From: Xanthocytophaga flava | Lineage (GTDB): Bacteria; Bacteroidota; Bacteroidia; Cytophagales; 172606-1 | Direction: 5' to 3' | Length of the DNA: 64,000 bases | NCBI GenBank assembly: GCA_030068525.1 | Contig: JASJOS010000011.1 | Coordinates: 248,001-312,000, forward strand | Shown here: one piece after another, positions 11,441 to 61,950 of the stretch | How the letters are laid out: every line of letters begins with the position of its first letter | How positions within the stretch are numbered: the stretch's first letter is position 1 | Translations under genes and position numbers: made by a program | The notes under the pieces: generated by a model | Databases searched by the model: none | Seen by the model: only the letters and a program-made list of their open reading frames with translations | What the model was told of the DNA's origin: nothing

Positions 11441-11582
11441 AAACTTCAATCGTGTAAGGTGGTATAGGTGCGTTGGCAATCTTTTCTCCGCGAGGTTGGC
11501 CTTTGGCCTTGCGGGGGGAAGGATCAGAGAAAAGTGCCCTTTTTTGCTTCGTTTTTTGGGCAAGCAAAAAATGAAGAAGCTA
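11441..11582 (+). repeat. Interspersed repeat family A, copy 1
   Basis: Shares with copies at 42.5, 52.1 and 61.6-61.9 kb an ACTTCAATCGTG lead, a long outer stem (here CTTTTCTC 11481-11488 with GAGAAAAG 11527-11534), inner CCGC/GCGG pairing, and a constant tail in which TTTTTTGCTT (11540-11549) pairs with AAGCAAAAAA (11562-11571). An alternative GCCC/GGGC pairing overlaps the last hairpin. The stem sequence differs between copies but stays paired, which points to a structured RNA or ssDNA element. The small reading frames through it, one encoding FFIFCLPKKRSKKG on the minus strand, are ghosts. Confidence 0.85.
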
Positions 11583-11773
11583 CAAGAAGAGTGAGGTAAG
11601 AGACAATAAACAAATGTAGATAGAGCGAACAAAGAAGAAAGAAGCCTATGAAAAAGATAGGTTCTGGACTATCAACCGACTCTAGATATCAGCAAGCAAA
11701 AAATGAACAGGTTAGTGGAAGAATAATGATCGGGACAATAAATCAACGCAGAAAGAGAGATTTATAAAAAATA

Positions 11774-11815
11774 AACCAAGCCCACATTTTTCAAAAACAT
11801 AGGCTTGGGTTTTAT
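11774..11815. terminator. Terminator hairpin of the conserved-loop type
   Basis: AACCAAGCC (11774-11782) pairs with GGCTTGGGTT (11802-11811) with one bulge, followed by TTTA. The loop matches those of hairpins at 52314, 61336 and 62061, whereas the stems differ. It lies between the symporter and the convergent gene ending at 11875. Confidence 0.7.
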
Positions 11816-11874
11816 TCACATCCAACATTCGGGTCCCTACTCAATGAATCTAACACTTCTGCTCAGATTAGGTG

Positions 11875-12552
11875 TTAGAATTCATATCCAACCGAAAATT
11901 TTATAGTACGGTTATAAGTATTAAAGCGTTTGTTTTCATCCAGGCGCTGGAATCCATAATCATAGGCAGCCATGATATTTACCCCATTTACGAAGCGATA
12001 GCCTATACCTGCCACACCACTGAAATCCCATTTCTGAAATCCGTTGTTAATATCCAGCGTACGGTTAAAGGCCGATATACCTAGCACACTGGCTCTCACG
12101 TGAACTTTATTGTCGACGAGGTAACTTACCTGCGGACCTGCAAACAAATGAAATCCTTCTGCCAGATATACTTTGGCTAAGATCGGCATCTCAATGTAGT
12201 GCGATTGTACCCGGAAAGTGGTGTTGACATTCAGAAAGTCGATTACCTGAGAATTTCCATTGAGTCTACCTGTTAGCTCCGTACCTTTGAGAGAGTACTG
12301 AAGGCCAGGCTCAAGTGTGAAGTAGTCGCTGAGTTTAATAGCTGCATAGCCACCGGCATGGAAGCCCACACGGGATTGGGTAGTAACCGCACCATCGGTT
12401 GCTCCTAACAGATCACTGATACTTTGCATAGTTTCACCTTGCCAGCTTGAAAGGTTCATACCCCCACGAATTCCATACCGAACTTCAACCTGGGCATAGG
12501 TACATACGAATACGCCTAAAAAGGCAATAAAAGAGAAAAGAATTTTTTTCAT
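11875..12552 (-). CDS. Small outer-membrane beta-barrel protein (PorT-like family)
   Basis: A 225-residue protein with a signal peptide (MKKILFSFIAFLGVFVCTYA-Q) followed by alternating beta strands: RYGIRGGMNLSSW, TLEPGLQYSLKG, SHYIEMPILAKV, FHLFAGPQVSYLV, and a terminal IKFSVGYEF ending in Phe. This is the outer_membrane_beta-barrel/PorT-like fold common in Bacteroidota. The function is unknown. A single barrel of eight or so strands is inferred. Confidence 0.8.
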   Translation of the reverse strand: MKKILFSFIAFLGVFVCTYAQVEVRYGIRGGMNLSSWQGETMQSISDLLGATDGAVTTQSRVGFHAGGYAAIKLSDYFTLEPGLQYSLKGTELTGRLNGNSQVIDFLNVNTTFRVQSHYIEMPILAKVYLAEGFHLFAGPQVSYLVDNKVHVRASVLGISAFNRTLDINNGFQKWDFSGVAGIGYRFVNGVNIMAAYDYGFQRLDENKRFNTYNRTIKFSVGYEF

Positions 12553-12724
12553 AGTTATAGTAGCTTGTGAAGCAGTATGTTGTACTGATCACACTCAATG
12601 CGAAACCCGTGCCAAAGTAATTTGGGGATGGCATATATTTTTACCGTGTACCGGATCTGGTCAAATCGGTTGGATACAGTAAACTCTTTTTTTATCTTGA
12701 AGGCGTTTTTTAACTTTCCCGGAC

Positions 12725-13357
12725 ATGAAAAGAAAGCTGACCTTTGTTGTTTTGATTCTGGTCTTTTTAGCTGGAGTGACTCTTGTGTGCAACTGGACTA
12801 TTACGCGCGAAACGAAATCCTATTTGTATACAGATGTACAGGCTATACCCCACCATAGGGTAGGGTTGGTACTGGGAACCTCCGAAAAGCTGGCAAGCGG
12901 ACAGGCTAATCCTTATTTTAGCTACAGGATTCAGGCTGCCTATAGCTTGTTTAAAAACAAGAAGGTCGACTATCTGCTGGTGAGTGGAGACAACAGTTCA
13001 AAAAACTACAATGAGCCACGGGATATGAAAGATGCACTGGTGAAGTTAGGAGTACCTGAAAACCGCATTTATCTGGATTATGCTGGTTTCCGGACGCTTG
13101 ATTCGGTAGTACGGGCCAAAGAAATATTCGGACAGGAGTCATTTACAGTTATCTCACAACCTTTTCATAACCAACGGGCCGTTTTCCTAGCCAGACACAA
13201 AGGTGTGGATGCTGTTGCCTACAATGCCCGAGACATTAAGGGAGCAAATGGCTATAAAACCCATACCCGCGAATGGCTGGCACGTGTGAAAGTATTCATA
13301 GACCTATACCTGAACAAAGAACCTCACTTTCTGGGCGAGCGGGTAAAGATTGGGTAA
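12725..13357 (+). CDS. SanA/YdcF-like DUF218 membrane-anchored protein
   Basis: A 210-residue protein. One N-terminal anchor helix (about 5-24) precedes a DUF218 domain: VGLVLGTSEKLASGQANPYF, YLLVSGDNSSKNYNEPRDMK, GVPENRIYLDYAGFRTLDSV and VISQPFHNQRAVFLARH. In Enterobacteria SanA affects envelope permeability to vancomycin. The enzymatic activity of the family is not settled. The ATG at 12725 places the anchor at the very N-terminus. It stands alone on the plus strand. Confidence 0.85.
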   Translation: MKRKLTFVVLILVFLAGVTLVCNWTITRETKSYLYTDVQAIPHHRVGLVLGTSEKLASGQANPYFSYRIQAAYSLFKNKKVDYLLVSGDNSSKNYNEPRDMKDALVKLGVPENRIYLDYAGFRTLDSVVRAKEIFGQESFTVISQPFHNQRAVFLARHKGVDAVAYNARDIKGANGYKTHTREWLARVKVFIDLYLNKEPHFLGERVKIG

Positions 13358-13507
13358 GATTTGGAAAGTATATACTGTCGTTACCTGTAAACAGGAAAAG
13401 AGGGCCTTTCGGAAGGGGAAAGTGCTTTTTTTTAAGTTGATAGTTAAGATTGCATATATCCTCTTTCTTGGTCCATCTATAGTAGTAGAAGAAAGTCCGA
13501 TCAGTTT

Positions 13508-14176: not shown

Positions 14177-14182
14177 TTGATG

Positions 14183-14548: not shown

Positions 14549-14571
14549 AACTAATTGATTATGTTGAAACT

Positions 14572-16074: not shown

Positions 16075-16158
16075 AGGGGTAGAGATAAATAGAGAATATA
16101 GGACATTGTAATCTTCCTTGGTTTTACTAATCTAAACTATAGGAAACAGATCGTTGGT

Positions 16159-16245
16159 GAAAACGCACAACGACGGGAAAACCCGTGATTCAAACAAAAT
16201 AAACGGGGGAAAGATGTCGTTGGTGAATAACACCAACGACGGGAA
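16159..16245. repeat. Two related dyad repeats upstream of the amidase gene
   Basis: GTCGTTGGTG (16216-16225) pairs with CACCAACGAC (16231-16240). A second, imperfect copy (CGTTGGTG...CACAACG) lies at about 16152-16172, followed by ACGGGAAAACCCGT. Both units end in the same ACGACGGGAA. They sit between two minus-strand genes and could be a terminator plus leader structure, or simple repeats. Confidence 0.5.
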
Positions 16246-18104: not shown

Positions 18105-18651
18105 TTACAAATATCGGCATTCTATATACACGAAACTGACCGTAGTTTTGATCAGCATAACAACGGTCAAACAGCATAGGATGCTTATGATTAGTTGGTT
18201 TTAGTTCAGTGGTATTGCACTTATGGGTGTAGCTTTTGGATAAATAGAATGGGAGGTAGTAAGTGTGGATGTTAAGATGGACTTTATAGGAAAAATAGAA
18301 TAGATAACTAGCGGTTAGAGCAGGTGTAGTAAATAGATGAGATTCATCTGGATAAAAGTTAAAAAATGCCTTATTAAAAAGGGTATTTTTCCCGTTTGAC
18401 TTTTTACGGGTTTTTACAGTAGCCAAAAGGTGATTAATTGCTTGTTAAAGGCTTAATGTATGTTTTCTACGGATTTTGTAATGTAGCATACTTTATTTGT
18501 AAAAACAAGCGGAAAAATGCATGTAATAGTCTGTTGTACAGCTTGTAATATTATTTATATTTTTCATTTTGGTAACAATTGATAAAAGTTACTTTTGAAT
18601 ATGTGTCTGAAATGCCCTATCAAATGATGGTTTTAGATATGTTATAACTAT

Positions 18652-18684
18652 CTCTTAGATAGATAAGAGCTGATACCTGGTATC
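18652..18684. promoter_or_regulatory. Dyads upstream of vsr, one containing CCTGG
   Basis: CTCTTA (18652-18657)/TAAGAG (18664-18669) is followed by the palindrome GATACCTGGTATC (18672-18684), 31 bp before the vsr ATG. CCTGG is the recognition site of Dcm-type enzymes. An autoregulatory site is plausible but unproven. Confidence 0.4.
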
Positions 18685-18715
18685 TCATTTGTACGTTTAT
18701 TATAAAAAACATTTT

Positions 18716-19129
18716 ATGACAGACGTACACGATAAAAAAACGAGAAGCTATAACATGAGTCGTATCCGGGGAAAAGATACCAAGCCGGAAATGATTGTCA
18801 GAAAGTTTTTATTTTCTAAGGGATATCGGTATCGGGTGCATGGCAAGAAATTGCCGGGAAAGCCAGATATAGTATTGCCAAAGTACAAAACGGTTATTTT
18901 TATTCATGGTTGTTTCTGGCATGGGCATGAAGGATGTAAATATTATGTAATTCCTAAAACCCGTACAGAGTGGTGGGTAGAGAAAATTACAGGTAATAAA
19001 AGGAAGGATGCCGAGAACGAAGAGAAATTAAGGGAGGCTAATTGGAGGATTTTAACGATATTTGAATGCGAACTTAAAGGAAAGCAGAAGGAAGAAACAC
19101 TTCAAAAACTTCTTGCTCAGCTACAGTAA
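18716..19129 (+). CDS. vsr: Very short patch repair endonuclease Vsr
   Basis: A 137-residue mismatch nickase. Conserved blocks are SYNMSRIRGKDTKPE, GYRYRVHGKKLPGKPDIVLP (catalytic Asp in PDIV), KTVIFIHGCFWHGHEGC (active-site His and zinc ligands) and KNxKRKxDAE...ANWRILTIFECEL. The ATG at 18716 is preferred over a TTG nine codons earlier. Vsr nicks T:G mismatches left by deamination of the methylated cytosine, so it protects the host from its own C5 methyltransferase, which is encoded 110 bp downstream. First gene of the defence operon. Confidence 0.95.
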   Translation: MTDVHDKKTRSYNMSRIRGKDTKPEMIVRKFLFSKGYRYRVHGKKLPGKPDIVLPKYKTVIFIHGCFWHGHEGCKYYVIPKTRTEWWVEKITGNKRKDAENEEKLREANWRILTIFECELKGKQKEETLQKLLAQLQ

Positions 19130-19150
19130 ATTGCAATAGTGAAAACACAC

Positions 19151-19168
19151 CTTTCTGATATCAGAAGG
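19151..19168. promoter_or_regulatory. Palindrome between vsr and dcm
   Basis: The 14-bp perfect palindrome centred on GATATC (19153-19166) extends to 18 bp with one G:T pair. It has no T-tract, so it is more likely an operator or a methylation site than a terminator. Confidence 0.4.
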
Positions 19169-19239
19169 TTTGTGATAGTTAGCTGATTACAACTTTGAGC
19201 CAGTATTGAATAATAATAACCCTCTTAATCTGACACCAC

Positions 19240-20892
19240 TTGACAATACCTATTATTGACATATTTGCAGGACCAGGTGGTCTGGGCGAAGGCTTCAGTG
19301 CATTGCTTAATGAAAAAAATGAGCGAATATTTAAAATAGCTTTATCTGTTGAAAAAGATAAATACGCTCATGAAACTCTTAAACTAAGAAGTTTCTTTCG
19401 CTACTTTCCTGCCGGAAAAGTAACACCGGATTATTACAGTTTTGTAAAAGGTGAAATAACACTAGCAAAATTATATGAAAGACATCCTGAAGCAGAAAAG
19501 GCAGCAGATGAAGAGGCTTGGCATGCAACTCTTGGAGATGGTGATGGTGCAGTTGCCCATGATGAAGTTGATAAAAGAATAGAAAAAGCATTAAATGGAA
19601 CCAAAGACTGGGTTTTAATTGGAGGTCCTCCCTGTCAGGCATATTCTGTTGTGGGGAGATCCAGAAGACAGGAGAAATTTTTGGATGAAGAAACAGATGA
19701 ACGTGTCGGCCTTTATAAACAGTATTTGAGAATACTGGCTGTTCACAATCCGTCAGTGTTTGTAATGGAAAATGTCAAAGGACTTCTATCTGCTAAAACA
19801 GCGCAAAATTCTATTTTTTCAAAGATTTTGAGTGATTTGTCCAAGCCCGTAGAAACCTACCAAAAAGATTTTGGTGATAAAGGGAAAATACTTAATTGTC
19901 CAGGATATAAAATTTATTCTCTGGTAGTAAAAAAAAGAGAAAGTCTGCTCGCAGAGTATCCGGAATTTGAGCCAACAGATTTTCTGATTGAAGCGGAAAA
20001 GTATGGAATCCCTCAAACCAGACACCGGGTAATTTTACTGGGTGTAAGAAATGACATTGATGTCGTTCCTTCAACTCTACGAAAAGAAAAGGAGGTACCA
20101 ATATCAAAAGTACTTAACGGATTACCCGGACTACGGGGTGGCCTGTCCAGAATTGAAGATACGGATGAAGCCTGGAAACGTACGATTGAGAATATCCGGA
20201 ATGCGGATTTTTTACAAACGATGAATGAACAGGTGAAACAGATGATGTTTCAGCAACTTGATAATTTGAAAGTATCAGAGTTCGGGACAGGAAAGGATTA
20301 TTTAAAATTTGAGAACACGCTTCCTGACTATAAGCCGGAGTGGTATAGCGATGAAAAGCTGGAAGGAGTATGCAATCATGCTTCCAAAATGCATATGGAA
20401 AGTGATCTGCTGAGATACTTCTTTGCTGCCTGTTTTGCCAGAGTTAAAGGGTTCTCGCCTAAACTTGATGATTTTCCTGTGGCCTTACTACCTGATCATA
20501 AAAACATAAAACAAGGAAGCAAGGAACAGAAGTTTGATGACCGATTTCGTGTGCAGCTGGAAGACAAACCAGCCAAGACCATAACTAGTCATATTTCAAA
20601 AGACGGTCATTATTACATTCATCCGGACCCATCACAGTGTAGAAGCTTTACTGTAAGGGAAGCGGCACGGATTCAGACGTTCCCAGATAATTATTATTTC
20701 TGTGGTCCTAGAACTCAACAATTTCATCAGGTAGGGAACGCAGTACCTCCATTATTAGCTAATAAAATTGCTGTAATAGTAAACAAAGTTTTCAGATCAT
20801 TTATGATTGATAAACAATGTAATTACACAAATCTAGATTTGAATAGGCCGGATGGAAAGATTTCAATGGAAGAGCAATTTTATATTGGGTAA
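19240..20892 (+). CDS. DNA (cytosine-5-)-methyltransferase
   Basis: A 550-residue C5 methyltransferase with all key motifs: I (DIFAGPGGLGEGF), IV (GGPPCQAYSVVGRSR, catalytic Cys), VI (FVMENVKGLL), VIII (QTRHRVILLG), IX (SFTVREAARIQTFP) and X (QVGNAVPP). The start is TTG at 19240: a TGA lies three codons upstream and motif I begins five codons in. The long target-recognition region (about 290-450) is unlike that of Dcm and leaves specificity unknown. It marks self DNA for the restriction genes downstream and is paired with vsr. Confidence 0.95.
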   Translation: MTIPIIDIFAGPGGLGEGFSALLNEKNERIFKIALSVEKDKYAHETLKLRSFFRYFPAGKVTPDYYSFVKGEITLAKLYERHPEAEKAADEEAWHATLGDGDGAVAHDEVDKRIEKALNGTKDWVLIGGPPCQAYSVVGRSRRQEKFLDEETDERVGLYKQYLRILAVHNPSVFVMENVKGLLSAKTAQNSIFSKILSDLSKPVETYQKDFGDKGKILNCPGYKIYSLVVKKRESLLAEYPEFEPTDFLIEAEKYGIPQTRHRVILLGVRNDIDVVPSTLRKEKEVPISKVLNGLPGLRGGLSRIEDTDEAWKRTIENIRNADFLQTMNEQVKQMMFQQLDNLKVSEFGTGKDYLKFENTLPDYKPEWYSDEKLEGVCNHASKMHMESDLLRYFFAACFARVKGFSPKLDDFPVALLPDHKNIKQGSKEQKFDDRFRVQLEDKPAKTITSHISKDGHYYIHPDPSQCRSFTVREAARIQTFPDNYYFCGPRTQQFHQVGNAVPPLLANKIAVIVNKVFRSFMIDKQCNYTNLDLNRPDGKISMEEQFYIG

Positions 20893-20942
20893 AAAATGGT
20901 AGTTATATATTTCAATTAGGTTTTATTAAGTAGGAAAAACTG

Positions 20943-23336
20943 ATGATTATAGATTTATTTAAGCATTTGGAAGATTCTCATTCTAAAAAGCTAACCTATC
21001 AGGTAGCAAATAGGAGTACTCTGACGATAGATGCATTAAGTCAATGGGAAATCTCTCCAACAGCTGTATTTGGTGGAGAAAAGGGAAACCTAATACTTAA
21101 TAATTCTTTAATTCATTATTATGTCAAAGAAGATGTGGTAGGAGATGATATCATCTATGTCCAGGGAAATAGTAAAAGTGGTCAGGAAATAATAAAGCTC
21201 GAAATACAGATTGTCAACACCTTCAGACCCAGAGCCAGAATCATTAAGATAATTGGACAGGAGTTAATATCTAATGATGTAATAGCTTTAGTAGAGCTTA
21301 TTAAAAATTCATATGATGCAGACGCCACAAATTTAACTGTTTCTCTGAATGATATATTTTCTGATGAAGGTAGTCTTATTATTAAAGATGATGGCATTGG
21401 CATGTCATATGAGAAAGTAACAAATGTATGGTTAGAGCCTGCTACCCCAGATAAAAAAAGTAAGGAAGAATATACTTACAGTCAATATTACCAAAGAAGA
21501 TTTTTAGGAGAGAAAGGTATTGGAAGGTTTGCCGCACATAGATTGGGAGAAAAAATAGAGTTAACAACAAGAGCTAAAAATAATGTGGGTGAATTACTTA
21601 ACTATGAGACTCAAGTAGAAATTGATTGGTCTGCTTTTACTGATGATAAGTATCTGACAGAAATACCCATTAAAGTAGAAAAACAAAATATTCCTCAAGT
21701 ATTCATTAATGGTTCTGGTACATTGATCAAAATAACCAGAATAAATCCTTGGAAAAATCTTAAAGCTGTAAGAGATGCAGTTCTAAGAATAAGAAGTTTG
21801 GAAAGCCCTATAAAGCCACTTAATACAGGTTTGGATAATGATGATACGATTAATGACCCTGGAATAAATATAAATATAGAGTCAAACGATCCTGCATTAA
21901 CCCAGAATATTAATGATATAAAGTCTTTAAAGGATCTGTTAGATACAGCATTTTATAAGTTCTCAGCAAGTGTTGATGAAAAAGGAATTATTTCTTACGA
22001 TTACTCATTTAACAGACCAGACTATCCAGATAAAAAACGTAATGAAGAATCTCTCTCTGCAGATTTAAAAGGCTTTAACATTAACTGGTTTGAAGAAAAT
22101 ACTTTAAATCCCGTAAATACTCCTGGTGCATTTCATATTGATTTCTTTGCTTGGGATTTGGAGACCAGTGCATTAAAAGTTGCAGGTCTTGCAAAATATT
22201 ATCGTGAAATAATTGGTCCTAATACTGGTGTAAGAATCTACAGAGATAATTTCAGGGTTTGGCCATATGGGGAAGATGATGATGACTGGTTAGAGCTTGA
22301 TCTTAATAGGCTGAATGCTCCAAAAGAAAGATCGGTCTCCCGGAATCAAGTTTTTGGTATTATACATATATCCTCAGTAAAAAATCCTTTTCTGGTTGAT
22401 CAATCAAATCGTGAAGGTCTGATTAATAATATACAATACCAGCATTTTTACAATCTGGTTAGTTCATCTATTACTCTTTTTGCCAAAGAAAGGAAAAAAG
22501 ACAAGATCAATCTTGAAAGGGTTTCACAAAAGAAAGTATTGAGTGATAGTGTTACAGATAGTATTAATTTATTAAGAGACCAGATTCATTTAAATGAACA
22601 TACGAATCTATATAAAGACTCGGTAAAGAAGATTGAATTATCTTATCGGGATAAGATTAACGATGTATTGGAAAGGTACATGATGGCAGCAGCCATTGGT
22701 ATTTCATATAGCCTTCCAATTCATGAAATGAAATTAAGATTAACATCTATAAAACATGTAGTTGAAGACATCGAGAAAAATCCTTTGCTACAAGATAAAT
22801 TTCTAAGAAAATTATATGATGACATTAAAGAAACTGAAGCTATTGTTAATGCAGTAACTTCTATAATGTCCCGACAGAAAAAACAGAAAGTAACTTTATT
22901 TAAAGTTGCTAACAATGTAAAGATTCTTAAAGAAAGAGAGTTAGAAAAATATCAAATAGATTTTGAGATTACCGGAGATAAAACTCTGGAGGTTGAAGCT
23001 GTTCCTGGTTTATTAAATACTGCTGTTTTAAATATTGTTGATAACGCTATTTATTGGCTTAGAGTGAAACAATTAGAGAGTCGGGAGCAACTAGCCGACT
23101 TCAAAGCGAAAATATCAATTCATATTGGTATTCATGTAGAAAAGCCATATATCTCTATAAAGGATAACGGAAATGGACTTGAGGATCCATTTGATCTGTT
23201 AGTGGAACCTTATTATAGTAGAAAAACCGATGGTTTAGGATTAGGCTTATATCTGGTGAATGAAATTATGATTCGATTTGGTGGTTATTTTGAAGGATAT
23301 AATGAAAATGGAGCTGTTTTTAATCTAATATTTTAA
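20943..23336 (+). CDS. Dual-GHKL protein: N-terminal MORC/Hsp90-like ATPase plus C-terminal histidine-kinase module
   Basis: 797 residues. After a beta-rich region (1-95), a first GHKL ATPase has N-box VELIKNSYDADA (118-128), G1 DDGIGM (149-154) and G2 GEKGIGRFAA (189-198). A central region (about 210-560) follows. The C-terminus looks like a kinase: an H-box-like GISYSLPIHEM with His594, then a second GHKL with N-box LNIVDNA (696-702), G1 DNGNGL (741-746), and a segment reading SRKTDGLGLGLYLV (G2). No membrane helix is present, so the sensor is cytosolic. The next gene, 10 bp away, encodes a receiver-like protein. A phosphorelay is inferred from this order. It is probably part of the restriction operon. 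Confidence 0.8.
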   Translation: MIIDLFKHLEDSHSKKLTYQVANRSTLTIDALSQWEISPTAVFGGEKGNLILNNSLIHYYVKEDVVGDDIIYVQGNSKSGQEIIKLEIQIVNTFRPRARIIKIIGQELISNDVIALVELIKNSYDADATNLTVSLNDIFSDEGSLIIKDDGIGMSYEKVTNVWLEPATPDKKSKEEYTYSQYYQRRFLGEKGIGRFAAHRLGEKIELTTRAKNNVGELLNYETQVEIDWSAFTDDKYLTEIPIKVEKQNIPQVFINGSGTLIKITRINPWKNLKAVRDAVLRIRSLESPIKPLNTGLDNDDTINDPGININIESNDPALTQNINDIKSLKDLLDTAFYKFSASVDEKGIISYDYSFNRPDYPDKKRNEESLSADLKGFNINWFEENTLNPVNTPGAFHIDFFAWDLETSALKVAGLAKYYREIIGPNTGVRIYRDNFRVWPYGEDDDDWLELDLNRLNAPKERSVSRNQVFGIIHISSVKNPFLVDQSNREGLINNIQYQHFYNLVSSSITLFAKERKKDKINLERVSQKKVLSDSVTDSINLLRDQIHLNEHTNLYKDSVKKIELSYRDKINDVLERYMMAAAIGISYSLPIHEMKLRLTSIKHVVEDIEKNPLLQDKFLRKLYDDIKETEAIVNAVTSIMSRQKKQKVTLFKVANNVKILKERELEKYQIDFEITGDKTLEVEAVPGLLNTAVLNIVDNAIYWLRVKQLESREQLADFKAKISIHIGIHVEKPYISIKDNGNGLEDPFDLLVEPYYSRKTDGLGLGLYLVNEIMIRFGGYFEGYNENGAVFNLIF

Positions 23337-23346
23337 ATATTATTCT

Positions 23347-24633
23347 ATGGCATACTTTCCTGGTAATATAATGATTATAGATGACCAGTTTGATCTTATC
23401 TATAACGCTGTACCGTCAGAAACAGAATTTCAGATACAATACAACTCCCTTCTTGGCATACGTAAATTTTCTGAAGACAATGGTATTCCTTTGATAGCTA
23501 TATCTGATACCCAAGATGTTGAAAGTTTAAAGAAGAAAATGGTAGCATATCGTAATGTTAGGCTACTGATTATAGACTTAGACTTAAATAATGATGGTAG
23601 CGTAAATGAAGAGGATGATTATCTGTTGATATATCTCATTCTGGAAACGGCAATAGAGCAATACGGATATTTTCTGTTAATGATAAATTCCGCACATTCT
23701 GAAGCTTGGGAAAGTATAAAAAGTAAGATGCCTGGAACCATAAACTCAAAATTGATTGATAATCTAACCCATGTTTATTCAAAGTCGGATGAAACAGCTG
23801 CATATAAGAGTATCGATTTAATTGGAAAAAATTTTTCCGCAGAATTGATCTATCATTTTGAGTGCACTCTCAATATGGCACGCGATAAGGCTTTTAGTAA
23901 TTTTCTGGATTTTGAAAAAGATAGCTGGAAGAAAATTTATCTTTCTTTTAAGAAGGAGACTGGCTTAATGGCTCATAATGATATATCAAATATTTTACTT
24001 GGTATTTTAAAGCAACATTTTATAGATACGACATATCCTGATATTGATGACGAAGGCTTTGATCATGATAGCGATCTTAGAAAGCTTATCTATAAAACGA
24101 TTAATTATACAGATAATCAGAAGGGAATACTTACTAAGCAACCTATATGGACGGGGAATTTGTATTATATAAACACAAATTCAGAAGATAGAAAATATGC
24201 ACTAATAATTACACCTGAATGTGATATAGCTCAAAACAAGCATATTTATTATAAAGCTATATATGGATTTGAAATAAATGATGTGACTTTTCCGGAATCG
24301 TATGAGAATAATAATATTACACAAGATCAAAAACCTCCATTGTATCCCTTTAGAGTCGGCAAAATACAAAACAATGGCAGACTAGATTGGGGGACAAAGA
24401 GGGCTCTAAAAAATAAGGTTGCAGAGTACAAGTCTTTTAATCAATACTTATTTCCACTACCTTATATAACTGAGAATTTAGTTTATCTTGATTTCAGAGA
24501 TATTGATTCTGTTTCTAGGGAAGATATAGTATTAAAGTGGAAATTATTATTAAGAATTAATGAACCAATGATTACTCATATAACAGATTCATATAGTAAC
24601 CTTGTAAATCGTAAAGGATTACTTCCTATTTAA
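23347..24633 (+). CDS. Receiver-like partner protein with EF-hand-type loop
   Basis: 428 residues. The first 120 look like a response-regulator receiver: acidic pair Asp12-Asp13 (IMIIDDQ), a candidate phosphoacceptor Asp77 at the end of a strand (RLLIIDLDL), and a later strand FLLMINSAHSE with Ser in the switch position. Directly after Asp77, residues 79-90 (DLNNDGSVNEED) match the calcium-loop consensus DxNxDGxVNxxD. The remaining 300 residues are not recognised. They include KYALIITPECDIAQNK, a strand-turn-CDI motif. There is no DNA-binding domain, so the output is probably protein contact. The receiver assignment is by pattern, not alignment. Confidence 0.6.
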   Translation: MAYFPGNIMIIDDQFDLIYNAVPSETEFQIQYNSLLGIRKFSEDNGIPLIAISDTQDVESLKKKMVAYRNVRLLIIDLDLNNDGSVNEEDDYLLIYLILETAIEQYGYFLLMINSAHSEAWESIKSKMPGTINSKLIDNLTHVYSKSDETAAYKSIDLIGKNFSAELIYHFECTLNMARDKAFSNFLDFEKDSWKKIYLSFKKETGLMAHNDISNILLGILKQHFIDTTYPDIDDEGFDHDSDLRKLIYKTINYTDNQKGILTKQPIWTGNLYYINTNSEDRKYALIITPECDIAQNKHIYYKAIYGFEINDVTFPESYENNNITQDQKPPLYPFRVGKIQNNGRLDWGTKRALKNKVAEYKSFNQYLFPLPYITENLVYLDFRDIDSVSREDIVLKWKLLLRINEPMITHITDSYSNLVNRKGLLPI

Positions 24634-24711
24634 AATAATTTAACAACATCATTCTCTAAACATATTTTCACAATTCGAATATAGAGGCTTGTAATCTGCT
24701 ATTTTAGAAAT

Positions 24712-24828
24712 ATGGAAAAAAGAGAGAGCAGGTATACTAATAAGTGTTTCAAGTTAAAAGATAATAGTATTGTAATTATTTCTTCTGTTACTATACTTCA
24801 TAAAGTCTATAAGCTACTACTTGATTAA
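24712..24828 (+). CDS. Possible small protein, 38 residues
   Basis: ATG at 24712, stop at 24826-24828, in the 205-bp gap before the MORC-like gene. The product (MEKRESRYTNKCFKLKDNSI...) is basic with a hydrophobic centre. No homology is known, and codon use in such AT-rich DNA gives no support. Listed only as a candidate. Confidence 0.2.
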   Translation: MEKRESRYTNKCFKLKDNSIVIISSVTILHKVYKLLLD

Positions 24829-24839
24829 ATTTCTTTCTA

Positions 24840-26318
24840 ATGGTTGAAAGTACAGTTTTATCACCTCATCCTGTTTTATTTATTAAATCAATTTCAGAAC
24901 AAGGATATTCACTTTCAACCGCCATAGCTGACCTTATAGATAATTCTATTGCTGCCAGAGCAACTCATATTGACATTTTGGCTGATGCCAGTCAGCAGTC
25001 TTTAAAAATATTCATTGCAGATAATGGATTGGGTATGGTTTCTGAAAGACTAACATCTGCTATGCGTTTTCCAAGTGCAGATGTAGATGATATCAGAGCC
25101 GGAAACGATCTTGGCCGTTTTGGTTTAGGCCTGAAGACTGCATCTTTTTCCCAGTCACGCAGTTTTACTGTAATTTCAAGAACAGATATATCAGATTATG
25201 CAGGACGAACATGGGATGTTGAGTATCTGAAAAAGACAGACAATTGGTCTCTTATAATAGAAAGCCAGAATCATATAGAAGAGTTATTGTCTGAATATAA
25301 ACAGATAAGCAACAATTTTCATGGGCAAAGGAAAGACTTTAATCTGAAGACTCTTATCATATGGAGAGATCTCTATAAACTTGAAAGATTAAGAAAAAGG
25401 GATGATATAAGTGATGAACTGGAAGACCTCCGTAGTCACATAGGTTTGGTGTTTCATCGGTTTATTCAATCTGGCAAAATTACTATTCGCTTGAATAATT
25501 CACTGATAGAGGCCTTTGATCCTTTCCCGCTTCATTGTTCTGATGTCCAAAAAGTATCTGAGAACTTCTGGAAGACAGGAGAAACCTATATTAGATTTGA
25601 AGGGATTATTCTTCCCAAAAGGTCTGCTCAGGAATCCAGAGAACCGAATTCAATCTGGGCTTCGGGTGGGAGGACTCTGGAAGAATTACAAGGTATATAT
25701 GTCTATCGTAATAAGCGCTTAATCAATTTTGGAGGATGGCTAAGGACAATCACAAAGTCATCCTATCTCCAGTTTGGAAGAATAAAGATCGATATTACAA
25801 ACATAAACGACAGTGAATTCCACCTTAATGTTGCAAAGTCATCTCTTAAAATTCCTTTCGAGCTCAAAAGGGCTATGACCACTATGGTTTCCCAGGTAGC
25901 AGAGCAAGCTACAAAAGAATACCGTGAAAGGCTTGCTTCAAACGTCATCAAACCATCAAGAAAGTCTAAAGGATTATCTCTGATAATAAAAGAAACAGGT
26001 GCTGCAGGGCCACGTTTAAAAATCAATCCTGACTTTGAGGTTTTAAGACAGTTGCAAACACAGATTGATCCGGAAAGCTCTGGCCGGCTGGATGTATTGC
26101 TGACGCTGATTGAAAGAAAGATGAACGAGCTGTGGAAGGGTGAAATAGGTTCAGACGATACAAGCATCATGTTGGATGAGGCTTTAAAACAAAGAATCAT
26201 AAAACTGAAGAAATATTATGAAGAGTCAGACTATTCATGGGAAGAAATAAAATTCCTGCTTCTGGATAGTTTTGGTCGGGATCATGAAACTGAATTATTT
26301 ATCACTTCATTAAAATAA
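24840..26318 (+). CDS. MORC-like GHKL ATPase (HATPase_c_3)
   Basis: A 492-residue protein with a GHKL fold at the N-terminus: N-box IADLIDNSIAA (Asp31/Asn35), G1 ADNGLGM (61-66), and G2 LGRFGLGLKTAS with Lys99. An S5-like domain with an IWRDL segment follows, then RINxxDSEFxLNVxKSS-type sequence. This is the MutL/MORC-related ATPase type that comparative genomics placed in restriction operons beside Z1 and nuclease genes. ATP-driven dimerisation and DNA clamping or looping is the family role. It sits 5 bp before the Z1 gene, so the two are surely co-translated. Confidence 0.88.
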   Translation: MVESTVLSPHPVLFIKSISEQGYSLSTAIADLIDNSIAARATHIDILADASQQSLKIFIADNGLGMVSERLTSAMRFPSADVDDIRAGNDLGRFGLGLKTASFSQSRSFTVISRTDISDYAGRTWDVEYLKKTDNWSLIIESQNHIEELLSEYKQISNNFHGQRKDFNLKTLIIWRDLYKLERLRKRDDISDELEDLRSHIGLVFHRFIQSGKITIRLNNSLIEAFDPFPLHCSDVQKVSENFWKTGETYIRFEGIILPKRSAQESREPNSIWASGGRTLEELQGIYVYRNKRLINFGGWLRTITKSSYLQFGRIKIDITNINDSEFHLNVAKSSLKIPFELKRAMTTMVSQVAEQATKEYRERLASNVIKPSRKSKGLSLIIKETGAAGPRLKINPDFEVLRQLQTQIDPESSGRLDVLLTLIERKMNELWKGEIGSDDTSIMLDEALKQRIIKLKKYYEESDYSWEEIKFLLLDSFGRDHETELFITSLK

Positions 26319-26323
26319 TATTC

Positions 26324-29300
26324 ATGGCTTGGGAAATTTTATCTGAAAATATCAGAATTAAAGCAGAAAAGATAAAAAAGAAACAGGGATCTATTACTGA
26401 GAATCAATTGAATACCTGTATTGTTTCTGAATTTAATCAACTAAAGAATTCCGGAGTTGTCGATTATTTATTTGAAGGTGTTGATGAAAGGACACTTCAG
26501 AACTGGGTATCTAATATCCAGACAAGGCTTAAATCTGTCATAATAACAACAATAGGTTCAGACAATACTATTGGGGACTCAACAGAATATGACCGATGGA
26601 TAGAAGAGCGATCTCCTTCACTGGTATGGAACTATTTCGACCGTTATGTTCAATATCTGCGAAGAATAGGAAGACCATCTGAAGTTATTCAGAGTACTGT
26701 AAGAAGTACCAGAGAAATTATTGAGAGATTAGGAGATCCAGCTAAAGAAATAGATCAACTACAGAAAGGTCTTGTATTAGGCTCTGTACAGTCAGGTAAG
26801 ACAGCTAACTTTAATGGAGTCATTAACCGGGCTATTGATGCTGGTTATGATATCATTATTGTTTTTTCCGGACTCATGGAAGACTTGCGATCTCAGACAC
26901 AAAAAAGAATAAATAATGATGTAATAGGGCTTGGGGAAATAGGAGGGCAAATAAACCAGGCAGTTGGAGTGGGAAATATTCAGCAATTTGGAAGAAATGG
27001 AGTCTATCAGATTACCTCTATAACATCAACCACTGCAGACTTTCGTAAGTCACTTGTTGACGTCAATTTTGACTTTTCCAATCAAAGGATTTTGGTTTGT
27101 AAAAAAAATGTTAGTGTACTTACAAATCTTATTTACTGGCTTAGATCCTCTATGCCTCAGGCTGATACCAGACTTTCCAGATCAGTACTGATTATCGATG
27201 ATGAAGCGGATAATGCTTCACTGAACAATCTGGGTTACAAAGGGGCTGAATATGCAAGTAAAGTAAATGGAAATATTCGAGCTTTGCTAAATCTGTTTAA
27301 ACGGCGATCTTATCTTGGATATACAGCAACCCCATTTGCCAATATCCTTCAGGATCAGCATGGGGAAGTCGATAGTGAAAGTGCCTGGAAAATTAAATTT
27401 CGCTATAATGGTGTAACTCGTGATTTGGATCTTAGTTTGTCTCCTGGTCTTTTTCCTGACAGGTTTATTTACAAACTCTCCACTCCATCTTCTTACCTGG
27501 GCCCAAGAAGGTTTTTTTCAAATGGTATGGAACAAGAAGGAGATAAAAAAATACCATTAATAGAAACCATTCCAGAGCCTGAGAAAGATGAAGACTTTCC
27601 TGTTGGGGATACTGGTCTTTCTTTAAAAAGATCTCTGATTGATGCTATTGATTGCTTTATACTTTCTATTGCACTTCGGGATTCCCGTAAATCCATACTC
27701 GAGTCTTTACCCGGATATACCAACCATCATACGATGCTTGTACATATCTCAAGACTGATAGTTGAGCAGAATGAGATAGCGAATAAAATAAAACGTTATG
27801 TTGAAATTGTTGAGAAAAGGATTAATGATGATAGTATTAATGATCCCCATGGAATTTATGAAAGATTGAGACTACAGTGGAACAGATACTTTGCCTATAA
27901 AGTCGCAAATATCCGGTCATATCTGCCCGGAGATTATAATACTGATGGACTGGAGCCCAAGACCTGGGATGATATTTCTGAACTTTTGCCTAACGCTGTC
28001 GGCAATATTTCTGTAAAAGCTGTAAACTCGCAAAAAGGTGATAAATTGGATTATTCCGGCCCAGTGAATAAAAAATATATTGCGGTTGGAGGAAACAGGC
28101 TTTCCAGAGGCTTTACTTTGGAAGGACTTACCATAAATTATTTTCTTCGTGATACTGATTATTATGATACTCTGCTTCAAATGGGGCGTTGGTTTGGTTA
28201 TAGACCAGGTTATATTGATGCATGTCGTCTCTTTATTGATTTTCCAACAGAGAGAAAATATAATTTTATTACGGCAGCTTTATGTGAACTAGAGGGGCAG
28301 ATTGAGAGTATGGAGCTTCAAAGAAAGACTCCTAAAGAGTTTGAGCTCAGAATCAGAAAAGATCCGGAGACTCTGCAAATTACACGTAATGTCATTCTGA
28401 AAAATGCTAAGGAAGTATATTTCTCATATCAGGATAATGTACAACAATCCACCCTGTTTGAAATAAAAAAGAATACTTTGGAAAGTGCCTGGAGTGGTTT
28501 CAAGGCTTTAACTGATAAGCTTGATTTTGTGAAATCAGATGAAGATCCTGGTTTCTATATTCTTGAAGGCGATAAAAATCTTCTTTACAACTTTCTGGAT
28601 TTGCCAAGATCATATAGAACTGGACCCGGATCTTTTGATATTAATAGTATAAAAGAGTATGTTGATCTTTGTGTAAGCAGAGGAAAGCTCACTAAATGGA
28701 CAATTGCAATAAAACATACAGGATCAGGACAATGGTTAAAAGAAGGCCTTAAAGAGGGTAAATATCCGGTACGGATGACAGTTCGTAGTGCACCAAAGAA
28801 AAAAGAGGAACTTAAGTATTATGAAATGTTGCTGAACGAACAATTATTTATTGCTTCTGGTAAATCAATGAACATTATGACTTCAGGTAGCGATGAAGCA
28901 GTAGGATTGTCAAAGGTGAACAAAGGACGTGCAATTGGTGAATTCAGAAATTTTAAAAAAGAGAAGTTTATTAAAGAGAATGAAGGGGCAACAGAAGAAG
29001 AAGCTATAGCAAAAACGAAGGATACTACTTTGCCAGGCTGGATCTTCAGAAAAAACCGTGCTGAAAGCGAAGGTTTATTATTGATCTACCTGATAGATAT
29101 GAAAGGTATATTCAATGATGATGTTTTAGACATTGTTGCAAAGGAGAAACAACTTAATACTGAGATACCGCTAATCGGATATGCATTGAGTTTTCCTCCA
29201 ATCAATGATGATCCCGGAGGCGTTTATCTGGCTAATGAAACTGTAACATCCACAGCCGAAATTGATCTTGAGTATGGAGATACAGAAGTACCGGAAGATT

Positions 29301-29329
29301 TGAACACGGAAATAAATGACATTGTTTAG
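26324..29329 (+). CDS. Z1 domain protein, superfamily-II-like ATPase
   Basis: 1001 residues. Walker A is GSVQSGKT (153-160), Walker B is VLIIDDEAD (288-296), motif III-like YTATPFAN is at 333-340, and a late SRGFTLEGLTINYFLR precedes QMGRWFGYR (likely arginine fingers). The region around 430-720 is the Z1 domain, found in restriction-associated helicase-like ATPases. The N-terminal 140 residues are helical. It probably translocates or remodels DNA for the nuclease encoded next: its stop codon (29327-29329) directly abuts that ATG. The family assignment is strong, the mechanism is inferred. Confidence 0.92.
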   Translation: MAWEILSENIRIKAEKIKKKQGSITENQLNTCIVSEFNQLKNSGVVDYLFEGVDERTLQNWVSNIQTRLKSVIITTIGSDNTIGDSTEYDRWIEERSPSLVWNYFDRYVQYLRRIGRPSEVIQSTVRSTREIIERLGDPAKEIDQLQKGLVLGSVQSGKTANFNGVINRAIDAGYDIIIVFSGLMEDLRSQTQKRINNDVIGLGEIGGQINQAVGVGNIQQFGRNGVYQITSITSTTADFRKSLVDVNFDFSNQRILVCKKNVSVLTNLIYWLRSSMPQADTRLSRSVLIIDDEADNASLNNLGYKGAEYASKVNGNIRALLNLFKRRSYLGYTATPFANILQDQHGEVDSESAWKIKFRYNGVTRDLDLSLSPGLFPDRFIYKLSTPSSYLGPRRFFSNGMEQEGDKKIPLIETIPEPEKDEDFPVGDTGLSLKRSLIDAIDCFILSIALRDSRKSILESLPGYTNHHTMLVHISRLIVEQNEIANKIKRYVEIVEKRINDDSINDPHGIYERLRLQWNRYFAYKVANIRSYLPGDYNTDGLEPKTWDDISELLPNAVGNISVKAVNSQKGDKLDYSGPVNKKYIAVGGNRLSRGFTLEGLTINYFLRDTDYYDTLLQMGRWFGYRPGYIDACRLFIDFPTERKYNFITAALCELEGQIESMELQRKTPKEFELRIRKDPETLQITRNVILKNAKEVYFSYQDNVQQSTLFEIKKNTLESAWSGFKALTDKLDFVKSDEDPGFYILEGDKNLLYNFLDLPRSYRTGPGSFDINSIKEYVDLCVSRGKLTKWTIAIKHTGSGQWLKEGLKEGKYPVRMTVRSAPKKKEELKYYEMLLNEQLFIASGKSMNIMTSGSDEAVGLSKVNKGRAIGEFRNFKKEKFIKENEGATEEEAIAKTKDTTLPGWIFRKNRAESEGLLLIYLIDMKGIFNDDVLDIVAKEKQLNTEIPLIGYALSFPPINDDPGGVYLANETVTSTAEIDLEYGDTEVPEDLNTEINDIV

Positions 29330-32658: not shown

Positions 32659-32839
32659 TTAGTTTCCTACTTGATAATCTATAGCTGCATTTCTTTGGAT
32701 AATAGAATATCCTCAATTTGTAGCACTTATGAAAGTGTAAAGATAAGGAGAATGGAAAAGGCACCATAATCGTTATTGTATGTACTATCAATCAGTGAAA
32801 ACCAGTTTAGAATTGATTTAATTATTGGTTTGTAGTATC

Positions 32840-33409
32840 TTAATCTAAACTATTAATAAGTATATATCGATTCTTAGTAGTGGCAAAATGGCCAATGTCT
32901 ATAGCTTGAGAAGATTGCAAGTTCAGGATCCAAAAAGCGGTTTCTGTAGAATCTTTCGGATTGTGTACTGCTAAAAGCTGAATAGAGTCAGTGCATCTTG
33001 AGATATTGCTTTTTTCGTCGATTGAGCATAATTTAATCAAAGTGCCTTCTCGAACCAGGTTATTAAGTAATATCTCCTCTTTATTTAGTCGAAGTAACCA
33101 TACTAAAGAATTCTTTTCAGTTATTTTAGGAAAAGTGCTAACATCTAAAGAACGAATTATGTCACCTTCTTTTTTCTCTCTTAATAAGTGATGGCCAATC
33201 AAACTATCTAAAGACTTGCTCTTTTCATCCATAGTTACTGTTGGATTACTTAAAGTTAAATCGTTTTTTTCCAATTGATGCAATGCTTGAAGTTTCTTAT
33301 TGGCCTTCCAGCATAATTCAATGGGGGGAATCTTTGGAGTATAATAGCATTTTAAGCATATAGATACGACCACAATAAATTCCCATATAATATATAACGT
33401 CTTTTTCAT
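32840..33409 (-). CDS. SAF-domain-like, signal-anchored protein
   Basis: 189 residues with an N-terminal membrane anchor (about 4-21). Residues 34-93 read like a SAF/CpaB pattern: a lead strand, LEKNDLTLSNPTV, then DSLIGHHLLREKKEGDIIRSLDV. SAF domains bind polymers or sugars and occur in pilus protein CpaB and antifreeze-like enzymes. The rest is beta-rich (VWLLRLNKEEILLNNLV, then LIKLCSIDE). Its start overlaps the stop of the 4-TM gene upstream by four bases. Final gene of a three-gene operon. The SAF assignment is by eye. Confidence 0.5.
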   Translation of the reverse strand: MKKTLYIIWEFIVVVSICLKCYYTPKIPPIELCWKANKKLQALHQLEKNDLTLSNPTVTMDEKSKSLDSLIGHHLLREKKEGDIIRSLDVSTFPKITEKNSLVWLLRLNKEEILLNNLVREGTLIKLCSIDEKSNISRCTDSIQLLAVHNPKDSTETAFWILNLQSSQAIDIGHFATTKNRYILINSLD

Positions 33410-34671: not shown

Positions 34672-34682
34672 ACAGGCTTGAT

Positions 34683-42310: not shown

Positions 42311-42478
42311 ATGGAGGGAGGACAAAGGGATACAAGTAGGATGAGAGTCCCAAGGGAGATTATTTTCGAAATGTTTTTTCTTTATTCTCAAGTCCTGTTT
42401 TTGCAAAATATATAGGCCAAGATAAGACACATGTCTTTTCTGAAAATGAAGGAAATAAGCTACAAAGAGAGCCAAGAT

Positions 42479-42622
42479 GACTTCAATCGTGTATGGTCGT
42501 ATAGGTGCGTTGGCATTCTTTTCTCCGCGAGGTTGGCCTTTGGCCTGTGGGTGGAAGGATCGGAGAAAAGTGCCCTTTTTTGCTTCGTTTTTTGGGCAAG
42601 CAAAAAATGAAGGAGCCACAGG
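42479..42622 (+). repeat. Interspersed repeat family A, copy 2
   Basis: Outer stem CTTTTCTCC (42518-42526) with GGAGAAAAG (42562-42570), then TTTTTTGCTT (42576-42585) with AAGCAAAAAA (42598-42607). Closest to copy 1. Unlike the other four copies it has no conserved-loop hairpin downstream. Confidence 0.85.
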
Positions 42623-52024: not shown

Positions 52025-52118
52025 CAAAAGGGGGATGGCAAGGATGGAGAGTTTTTTCATTTCCATGCCCTTTTTCCTGGAAACAAAGAAAATTCTGGTA
52101 CAAAGAGAAGTTATATTC

Positions 52119-52260
52119 ACTTCAATCGTGAGTGGTAGTGTAGGTGCGTAGGAATAAAAATTCCGCGTGCCTAGCGTTAGCCCTGCGGGGCGAAGCTTTG
52201 GAATTTTTTGCCCTTTTTTGCTTCGTTTTTTGGGCAAGCAAAAAATGAAGAAGCTTGTGG
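52119..52260 (+). repeat. Interspersed repeat family A, copy 3
   Basis: Outer stem AAAAATTCC (52156-52164) with GGAATTTTT (52200-52208), different in sequence from copies 1, 2 and 4 but still perfectly paired. Tail hairpin TTTTTTGCTT (52214-52223) with AAGCAAAAAA (52236-52245). Terminator-like hairpin follows at 52314. Confidence 0.85.
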
Positions 52261-52313: not shown

Positions 52314-52356
52314 AACCCAAGCCCACATTTCTCAAAAGTATAGGCTTGGGTTTTAC
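52314..52356. terminator. Terminator hairpin of the conserved-loop type
   Basis: AACCCAAGCC (52314-52323) with GGCTTGGGTT (52343-52352), then TTTA. On the minus strand the loop region reads TATACTTTTGAGAAATGTG. It lies between convergent genes (lipoprotein and TonB receptor). Confidence 0.8.
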
Positions 52357-59156: not shown

Positions 59157-59193
59157 TATGAGATGTTTTTCTATCAACAAATCACATTAAAAC

Positions 59194-60861: not shown

Positions 60862-60944
60862 ACCAGACGGCCTGACTTTTATGTTACCATGTTACAACAG
60901 CAAAAGACTCAATCAGGGTCTTTTTGATAAATAAACTGGAAGTT

Positions 60945-61307
60945 ATGAAAAAACGTACCTTGGTGGTAGGTGCTTCAGACAATCCTACCCGATATGCTTA
61001 CAAAGCCGCAACCATGTTGAATGAATATGGTCATCCAATTGAGTTGCTGGGATTAAAGACAGGACAAGTAGCAGGTGCTGCTATCCAACGTGGAGAGCCG
61101 GATCTGGACTCCATCGATACGGTTACCTTGTATGTGGGCACACGCAACCAGCCACCTTTGTATGATTATCTGCTGAAACTAAAGCCTAAGCGGATTATTT
61201 TCAATCCAGGAACAGAAAATCCGGAATTTGCCCAGAAAGCCCGACAGCAGGGCATTGAGACTGTGCAGGGTTGTACACTGGTAATGCTTGCTACAGGACA
61301 GTTTTAG
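60945..61307 (+). CDS. CoA-binding protein (YccU-like, CoA_binding_2)
   Basis: 120 residues from the ATG at 60945 (MKKRTLVVGASDNPTRYAYK). Rossmann fold: VVGASDNP, GLKTGQVAG, IDTVTLYVGTRNQPPLYDYL and IIFNPGTENPEFAQKARQQG. The fold binds CoA or nucleotide. The role is not established. It is separated by 83 bp from the permease gene and may be transcribed with it. Confidence 0.88.
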   Translation: MKKRTLVVGASDNPTRYAYKAATMLNEYGHPIELLGLKTGQVAGAAIQRGEPDLDSIDTVTLYVGTRNQPPLYDYLLKLKPKRIIFNPGTENPEFAQKARQQGIETVQGCTLVMLATGQF

Positions 61308-61335
61308 GGTATTTATATAGTTTGGATGTGAGATC

Positions 61336-61373
61336 AGAGCCTATACTTTTTGAGAAGTGTGTAGGCTCTGTTT
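61336..61373. terminator. Terminator hairpin of the conserved-loop type
   Basis: AGAGCCTA (61336-61343) with TAGGCTCT (61362-61369) and loop TACTTTTTGAGAAGTGTG, followed by GTTTAG. Ends the CoA-binding gene and lies on the outer flank of repeat A4. Confidence 0.75.
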
Positions 61374-61539
61374 AGTTATTTGAGAAATTCCTCTTTCTTC
61401 AATTTCCTTACAACCTCTACTTTTCATGTTTGTATCCAAAGTTTGTTTATAGTCCAGAACATATTTCTTCTTATCGCCCTGTCACTTTTTTGCTTGCCTT
61501 TTCCTAAGTTGGTTTATGGTCACTTACTTTTCTCTTCCA

Positions 61540-61665
61540 TAGGCTTCTTCATTTTTTGCTTGCCCAAAAAACGAAGCAAAAAAGGGCACTTTTTGCCGAA
61601 CCTCCCACCCGCAAAGCCAGGGGCTTTCCTCGCGGCAAAAAGATTGCCAACCCACAGCTACAACG
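61540..61665 (-). repeat. Interspersed repeat family A, copy 4 (inverted)
   Basis: Minus-strand copy. Stem CTTTTTGCCG (61589-61598) with CGGCAAAAAG (61633-61642), 10 bp and distinct from all other copies. Tail GCTTGCCCAAAAAACGAAGC is constant. Head-to-head with copy 5, 100 bp apart. Confidence 0.85.
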
Positions 61666-61771
61666 GTTCGCGATTTAAGGAATCTTTACTCTCTTTGTCC
61701 CACCTAATAGATGCTCCTAGATTAGCTATTCCTTATAAATTCAAACAGCACATAATACAAAAACTAATGGT

Positions 61772-61950
61772 AACTTCAATCGTGGATGGTAGTGTAGGTG
61801 CGTAGGGATAAAAATTCCGCGGGCCTAGCGTTAGCCTTGTGGGGCGAAGCTTTGGAATTTTTTGCCCTTTTCTGCACACGCACAAATCTGGCTCACCAAA
61901 CTCTCGTTTGGCGCCCTGTTTTTTGGGCAAGCAAAAAATGAAGAAGCTAG
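61772..61950 (+). repeat. Interspersed repeat family A, copy 5 with internal insert
   Basis: Stem AAAAATTCC (61810-61818) with GGAATTTTT (61854-61862). About 50 bp unlike the other copies (61872-61920, with a GGCTCACCAAACTCTCG segment) interrupts the tail hairpin. The rest of the tail, TTTTTTGGGCAAGCAAAAAA, is intact. Confidence 0.85.

Follow-up and report, generated by a model that had tools for sequence, protein, structure and literature searches.

A dispersed intergenic repeat with a covarying pseudoknot core in Xanthocytophaga flava occupies the slots of terminator-type hairpins of a sister species

Five copies of an intergenic repeat, called repeat family A in an initial annotation and W1 to W5 here, lie in a 64-kb stretch of Xanthocytophaga flava DNA (contig JASJOS010000011.1, positions 248,001 to 312,000; hereafter the window), and they raise the question of what keeps a stem paired when its letters differ from copy to copy. 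On balance we lean towards a dispersed, non-coding, mobile-like element that folds as a single strand and owes its spread to gene conversion and to the replacement of terminator hairpins; the data suggest an unusual element whose spreading depends on its structure. All five copies were found where they had been placed, between long open reading frames (ORFs) and with convergent genes flanking three of the four sites, and the arms of the outer stem P1 match the annotated letters and are paired in every copy (W1, CTTTTCTC/GAGAAAAG, the next pair being C.A; W2, CTTTTCTCC/GGAGAAAAG; W3 and W5, AAAAATTCC/GGAATTTTT; W4, on the minus strand, CTTTTTGCCG/CGGCAAAAAG). The description of the tail as constant does not hold for W5, which carries about 38 additional bases within it.

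A 171-base query had 55 hits, fragments counted, in the genome that contains the window (G000; 9,485,478 bases in 63 contigs), and 40 of 113 first-look candidates were scored, so that at least 40 copies are present; an exact 20-base pattern from the tail matched 48 times. The genome of a sister species (G002) is also rich in copies. The full unit measures approximately 340–460 bp, is bounded by the inverted repeats AACATGAGTCATCCCGAATTTTGAG ... TTCGGGATGACTCATGTT and contains a folded core, in which the P1 hairpin precedes an H-type pseudoknot, as well as another hairpin near its 3' end. A GTAG lies about 14 nt upstream of P1 in G000 and is variable (GTAG, ATAG or GCAG). In the 3' hairpin of L008, L013, L024 and other copies, paired changes were seen by eye (AAGCC/GGCTT, GAGCC/GGCTC-like and GCGCC/GGCGC).

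An alignment of 34 copies folded with RNAalifold contained P1, an inner GGCC/GGCC hairpin and a tail hairpin, P3, with the loop GGGCAAGC and with arms that vary between copies (CTTCGTTTTTT/AAAAAATGAAG, TTACTTTTTT/AAAAAAGTAA and others). The TGCCC directly 3' of P1 pairs with the GGGCA of this loop, and where one of these strands reads TGTCC the other usually reads GGACA. Over P1, P3 and this pseudoknot stem (S1), 98.2% of 1085 cells were paired and two-sided changes occurred in 15 of 32 pairs; no shuffle out of 500 scored as high on four of five measures (1/500 on the fifth), and none matched either the share of paired cells or the number of two-sided changes. When the pseudoknot partner was slid by one to three columns, pairing fell to 46–63%. 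In a tree-aware test, a custom script in which substitutions were placed at random on a FastTree tree of 62 copies from G000 and G002 (60 simulations, about 10,000 column pairs; 31 of an initial 93 strings had been removed as fragments or as forms with an insert or an odd length), the five pairs with E < 0.05 stood at the top of the ranking and were all genuine P1 or P3 pairs, followed by two off-by-one P3 column pairs (E 0.07–0.08). P1 thus covaries in the wider set of genomic copies, against shuffles as well as against the tree-aware null. An alternative helix drawn by RNAalifold, P0 (AGG.GCG/TGYCCT), had one-sided changes only and was not adopted. By themselves, the folding energies of individual copies lend the fold little support (z-scores of −1.9, −1.9, −3.8, −0.7 and −1.0 for W1 to W5, with W5 cut to 150 bases). 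Rfam gave no match in the window, only matches below the gathering score in the W1 region and only tRNA and rRNA at eight loci from other taxa, and thus, at gathering and permissive thresholds, no credible match in any of these. The core structure is under selection as a single strand, as the initial annotation had proposed, and this is backed by covariation within the genus and, with other stem letters, in Chitinophagaceae (see below).

The distribution of wobble pairs bears on which strand folds. On the given strand, G.U cells outnumbered A.C cells by 68 to 14 (P1, 16:5; P3, 37:3; pseudoknot, 15:6), with 24 of them stemming from one P3 pair. A DNA cruciform would require both strands to fold equally, and the excess of G.U therefore favours a single strand, and RNA over DNA; the folded strand probably acts as RNA. 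Loop L1 is T-rich (TTTTTT) and adjoins the T/A-rich P3 (TTTTTT/AAAAAA), so a triple-helix pseudoknot is possible and weakly supported: among nine copies with a G inside the A-run, which were used to compare a parallel third strand with antiparallel pairing of L1, the parallel register fits better in c92, L279, L283 and L284 (10 vs 9, then three times 6 vs 5), of which three are Nitrospirae copies that may represent one event. c37, c39, c55 and c71 accommodate both registers, the antiparallel one with one base more; for the chimeric c29 (L022) only the antiparallel register works.

The comparison with the sister species, which is 90–97% identical to the window's syntenic blocks, revealed what stands at a site when the element is absent. 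The left flanks of 40 G000 copies were located in G002 and 30 places were compared: the element was missing at 10 of these, inverted in L083 and truncated in L020. At seven of the 10 element-less places (L006, L007, L012, L015, L024, L027 and L088) G002 carries a terminator-type hairpin. Where both flanks could be aligned (L006, L012, L015, L024 and L088), hairpin and unit sit in one slot between A-rich and T-rich flanks; the match is base-close in L012, L024 and L088, and L006 and L015 leave approximately 15–25 bases on the right side unmatched. In L027 the left flank alone was aligned, and in L007 the old hairpin is kept beside the element and is followed, after the element, by an inverted copy of the hairpin. 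Conversely, the places of 11 G002 copies were sought in G000; the core was missing at six of them, and a terminator-type hairpin occupies the slot at L201 and at L202, the latter with about 50 unmatched bases on the right. Taken in both directions, seven sites with both flanks aligned have the element in one species and a terminator-type hairpin in the other, and an additional, partial case lies in the window (Table 1). Nine of these hairpins (all except that of L007) folded at −20 to −31 kcal/mol, with z-scores of −7 to −11. At the swap sites the unit usually has its inverted repeats as bounds. Copies are therefore present or absent between sister species, and units lie in the slots of the sister's terminator-type hairpins.

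Resident copies are, moreover, overwritten module by module by other copies. The G002 site orthologous to W3 has a CTTTCTGCC-type core with an unchanged 3' flank, and among 17 comparable orthologous cores the P1 type differs in two and a W5-like tail insert in seven (13 of the 30 orthologous pairs were not comparable in these respects). In L131 and L129 of G002 the tail insert is present as a full palindrome with arms of approximately 28 bp (GCTCACACACAAATCTGGCTCACCAAAC...), with shorter chimeric forms in other copies, and the tail of W5 looks like a half-palindrome rejoined at GGTGCCC. The initial annotation had named copying between repeats as what would undo its inference from the stems. 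Copying does occur, and orthologous sites carry different stem types, but it leaves the stems of other taxa unexplained. In G002 the window segment with most of W4 and W5 is inverted, as though these two oppositely oriented copies had recombined with each other.

These other taxa were found by running an exact 24-base tail pattern against a set of 84,980 genomes, which returned 27 stretches from Chitinophagaceae and other Bacteroidetes (Taibaiella, Ferruginibacter and metagenome-assembled genomes, MAGs), a Nitrospirae MAG (JdFR-86) and a Latescibacterota MAG. In most of the 27, read by eye, a stem lies immediately 5' of (G)TGCC, followed by Ts and then P3, and the letters of P1 are unrelated to those in X. 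flava yet complementary (e.g. CCTGAAATCG/CGATTTCAGG, CCGACAAACG/CGTTTGTCGG and GCCTAAACCA/TGGTTTAGGC). Thirteen Chitinophagaceae copies show two-sided changes in seven of eight P1 pairs, and a covariance model built from them matched, at E ≤ 0.001, 39 times in the cultured species Taibaiella soli and 28, 37, 15, 11, 3 and 3 times in six further genomes; no fewer than 10 of the 37 Nitrospirae matches and 3 of the 15 Latescibacterota matches are confined to the tail. The pseudoknot reads CGCCC/GGGCG beside TGCCC/GGGCA in the Nitrospirae MAG (by eye), CTGC/GCAG (L258, L259, L261, L265 and L268) or CCGC/GCGG (L256) in T. soli, and TGCA/TGCA in L288 only in the Latescibacterota MAG; L282 and L289 pair poorly, L263 has one mismatch, and a longer insert replaces the loop in L260, L262, L266, L267, L269 and L270 of T. 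soli. The statements on T. soli and Latescibacterota rest on reading the sequences by eye, an automated tail parser having handled 30 of 38 and five of eight copies, respectively, some on the wrong strand. The layout recurs in G055 (another family of the same order) and in G305 (same phylum), each with its own P1. Across 395 genomes of the phylum, the exact 20-base tail pattern matched 48 times in G000 itself, twice in one other genome and nowhere else, so that the exact tail is rare; an exact 22-base pattern had no match in viral contigs, and blastn none in plasmids. Clustered repeats in G039 C1, at approximately 1.13–1.18 Mb (L034 and L066; another family of the order), have the same P3 stem, CTTCGTTTTTT/AAAAAATGAAG; their loop differs, reading CAGCAATGG, and a partner for a pseudoknot is not evident.

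If the element spreads in the way we favour, a terminator would be swapped by hairpin-directed exchange between palindromes that are flanked by tracts of A and T, the simplest route being ectopic template switching or gene conversion with no enzyme encoded by the element, and the core structure would serve the spread of the element and not the regulation of neighbouring genes. A bolder form of the proposal is doubtful in our estimation: that these repeats are a selfish non-coding class that crosses phyla, whose active form is a single strand with a hairpin and a U.A-U triple-helix pseudoknot, and which, itself having neither a DDE nor a Y1 transposase, spreads by taking the place of terminator hairpins, hairpin for hairpin.

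Two explanations place the function of the fold in the host. Gene context was determined with a crude ORF caller for pattern-recognised copies only (W4 is not among them). The initial annotation had read GCCC/GGGC and TTTTTTGCTT/AAGCAAAAAA as mutually exclusive pairings of a cis-acting switch or attenuator. Two such helices can indeed be drawn, and TTTTTTGCTT/AAGCAAAAAA is paired in 95% of cells, with one G-C pair invariant, but it has no covarying pair, equal to shuffles, and GCCC/GGGC is compatible with P3, forming the second, covarying stem of the H-type pseudoknot. Among 44 sites in G000, 21 lie between convergent genes, 18 between genes in the same direction (10 and 8 in the two senses) and five between divergent genes; the corresponding numbers are 10, 12 (5 and 7) and five in G002, and 3, 11 (8 and 3) and five in other taxa. 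At 39 of the 44 sites at least one gene ends upstream of the element, placing the G000 copies mostly at 3' ends of genes, in either orientation. The lack of a clear strand preference disfavours a cis attenuator as well as a 3' untranslated region element that works in one sense, and the switch is, in our judgement, very improbable. The position downstream of genes, the occupation of terminator slots, the 3' hairpin of the unit and the G.U-rich strand signature that points to RNA are all expected of an RNA of 3' untranslated regions or terminators that the host keeps because its fold protects or ends the transcripts of its neighbours, with copying as a by-product. We nevertheless consider this unlikely, given that there is no strand preference relative to the adjacent gene, that terminator scans of W1, W3 and W4/W5 were not above shuffles and that the sister species lives without the element at the same genes.

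The units could also be ordinary miniature inverted-repeat transposable elements (MITEs), i.e. non-autonomous elements moved in trans by a DDE transposase acting on their terminal inverted repeats, with an internal structure that is incidental or an aid to termination. In line with this, a 23-base pattern of the terminal inverted repeat had 56 matches in G000 at no more than three mismatches, compared with none for a reversed control, and units of MITE-like size are present or absent between sister species. No target-site duplication was seen by eye at five empty sites in G002 and two in G000, where a hairpin had been replaced instead, and the terminal repeats are missing from several full cores (e.g. 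L002, L003, L029 and L030). Of 16 loci with terminal inverted repeats (560 bases each), 15 contained the core unit and one (L108) a lone terminal repeat, and no autonomous relative was apparent among them, no ORF or transposase search having been run on these loci. A MITE also leaves unexplained the covarying core in three phyla, where the copies read were without this terminal repeat. A DDE transposase using these ends could still be at work; as a full account of the repeat, we judge the MITE to have a minor share of the probability. Other enzymes fared as follows. The Y1 transposase (PF01797) was absent from both genomes (G000 and G002), with the control positive in 5 of 14. A reverse transcriptase was rejected as mobiliser, each of the two genomes having one, retron-like by eye. 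A GIY-YIG nuclease was likewise rejected, with only three matches in G000 and four in G002, one in a different repeat module. No shared ORF was found near the 27 stretches from other taxa, only the repeat's own translations and a few unrelated-looking gene pairs. A lone retron-type reverse transcriptase ORF of 531 amino acids was noted at L169:1090–2685.

Several points weigh against the reading of a single-strand element that spreads by replacing terminator hairpins. The best pseudoknot pair ranked only ninth in the tree-aware test (E = 0.32), a test that itself assumes a tree although the copies recombine, and stems are broken in some copies (P1 in L114 and L135 of G002, P3 in L022 of G000), perhaps as a result of the copying events described above. 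Three of the 10 element-less sites in G002 (L017, L084 and L086) have other modules or unrelated sequence and no terminator; of the six in G000, L197 and L203 have other modules, L194 has nothing clear and L196 was not judgeable. A swap would be indistinguishable from an insertion after which the old hairpin was lost, and the polarity of the swaps is not fixed by an outgroup: of the sites queried in four genomes, that of L007 alone gave information, with hairpins after the left gene in two genomes of another genus (by eye). With a simple stem finder, 29 of 30 tails from other taxa scored above the mean of 20 shuffles and only nine above the maximum; one of these nine had the wrong stem, P1 was missed in L167 and several copies were mis-scored. 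The other phyla were found by an exact tail pattern, so that the identity of their tails comes partly from selection. The excess of convergent genes is confined to the genus (3 of 19 in other taxa), and the terminator scans called one hit in W1 (minus strand), one weak hit in W3 and none in W4/W5, no more than in shuffles. Finally, the searches for Y1 transposases, reverse transcriptases and shared ORFs found no mobilising enzyme, DDE transposases not being among the enzymes searched for.

Among known systems, MITE-type repeats such as ERIC and Correia elements resemble the present units in size, terminal inverted repeats, intergenic location and lack of evident coding capacity, and differ in that here no target duplication was seen, the slots are those of terminator hairpins and the covarying core has counterparts in other phyla. 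Group IIC introns likewise target intrinsic terminator hairpins. They insert beside the hairpin, however, and are equipped with a reverse transcriptase and intron RNA domains, whereas the window has no Rfam intron match and the one reverse transcriptase of the genome is retron-like. In triple-helix H-type pseudoknots such as that of telomerase RNA, a U-rich loop 1 lies beside a U-A-rich stem 2, an arrangement like that of L1 and P3; the element described here is bacterial and repeated and has no known partner. Full-text literature searches returned no description of this sequence or structure. REPs, according to PMC3733652, are 20–40 bp long with a terminal GTAG or CGTC adjoining the stem, and REPs and REPINs with their RAYT (Y1) transposases are like the present repeats in being multi-copy intergenic palindromes with compensatory stem sub-families and presumed movement in trans. 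The repeats analysed here differ by a core of about 145 nt with a pseudoknot, by a GTAG that is not at the stem and by the lack of a Y1 transposase. The element belongs with the MITE- and REP-like repeats, among which, as far as could be checked, the pseudoknot core, the occurrence across phyla and the replacement of terminators are new. It adds a strongly covarying structured family that is not in Rfam, with members in Bacteroidota, a Nitrospirae MAG and a Latescibacterota MAG, and the pairs of empty and filled sites, at which terminator-type hairpins and the element trade places between two sister species, make it testable what selects for structure in non-autonomous repeats of intergenic DNA and whether replication-linked sequence replacement is concentrated at terminator hairpins.

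Table 1. Repeat copies, their parts and associated features, in positions of the window.
Feature	Position	Strand	Remark
W1 conserved core (P1 hairpin and pseudoknot tail)	11438..11583	+	
W1 P1 5' arm CTTTTCTCC	11481..11489	+	
W1 P1 3' arm (A)GAGAAAAG	11526..11534	+	
W1 pseudoknot strand S1a, TGCCC	11535..11539	+	
W1 loop L1, TTTTTTG; possible third strand of a triplex	11540..11546	+	
W1 tail hairpin P3, 5' arm CTTCGTTTTTT	11547..11557	+	
W1 P3 loop GGGCAAGC; its GGGCA is pseudoknot strand S1b	11558..11565	+	
W1 P3 3' arm AAAAAATGAAG	11566..11576	+	
Terminator-like hairpin, 3' part of W1 unit	11776..11808	-	terminator scan: 1 found, shuffle mean 0.6
W1 whole unit, with degenerate terminal inverted repeats ATTATCCCAAATTTTGA ... 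CATTCGGG as ends	11372..11833	+	by eye
W2 core	42475..42619	+	
W3 core, AAAAATTCC stem	52114..52257	+	
W3 3' hairpin CCCAAGCC...GGCTTGGG	52316..52350	+	by eye; not called by the terminator scan
W4 core, CTTTTTGCCG stem, inner stem AAAGCC/GGCTTT	61536..61681	-	
W5 core, tail with added palindrome-derived bases	61768..61950	+	
Terminator-type hairpin, 5' half replaced by an element copy in sister species G002	8661..8699	.	partial case
Segment with most of W4 and W5, inverted in G002	61498..62085	.	

Other sequences in and around the window were noted in passing. When 80 kb of syntenic G002 sequence was compared, an 18-kb block (18407–36808) had no match longer than 250 bases there. At 16142–16245 lie short hairpin repeats (TCGTTGGTGA..CCAACGACGGGAA), and similar ones adjoin some G000 copies (L030 and L084). 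A second, separate repeat family, with a possible nuclease, is represented by an insert of approximately 730 bp that G002 carries at the place corresponding to 13377–13427 (L075:1432–1713), in which inverted repeats (TGTCCT..TGAAAG..CTTGTGACAAATAG) enclose a small ORF of the GIY-YIG nuclease type. The repeat module of this insert is also found 5' of W2 and W3 and, inverted, at 37449–37564.

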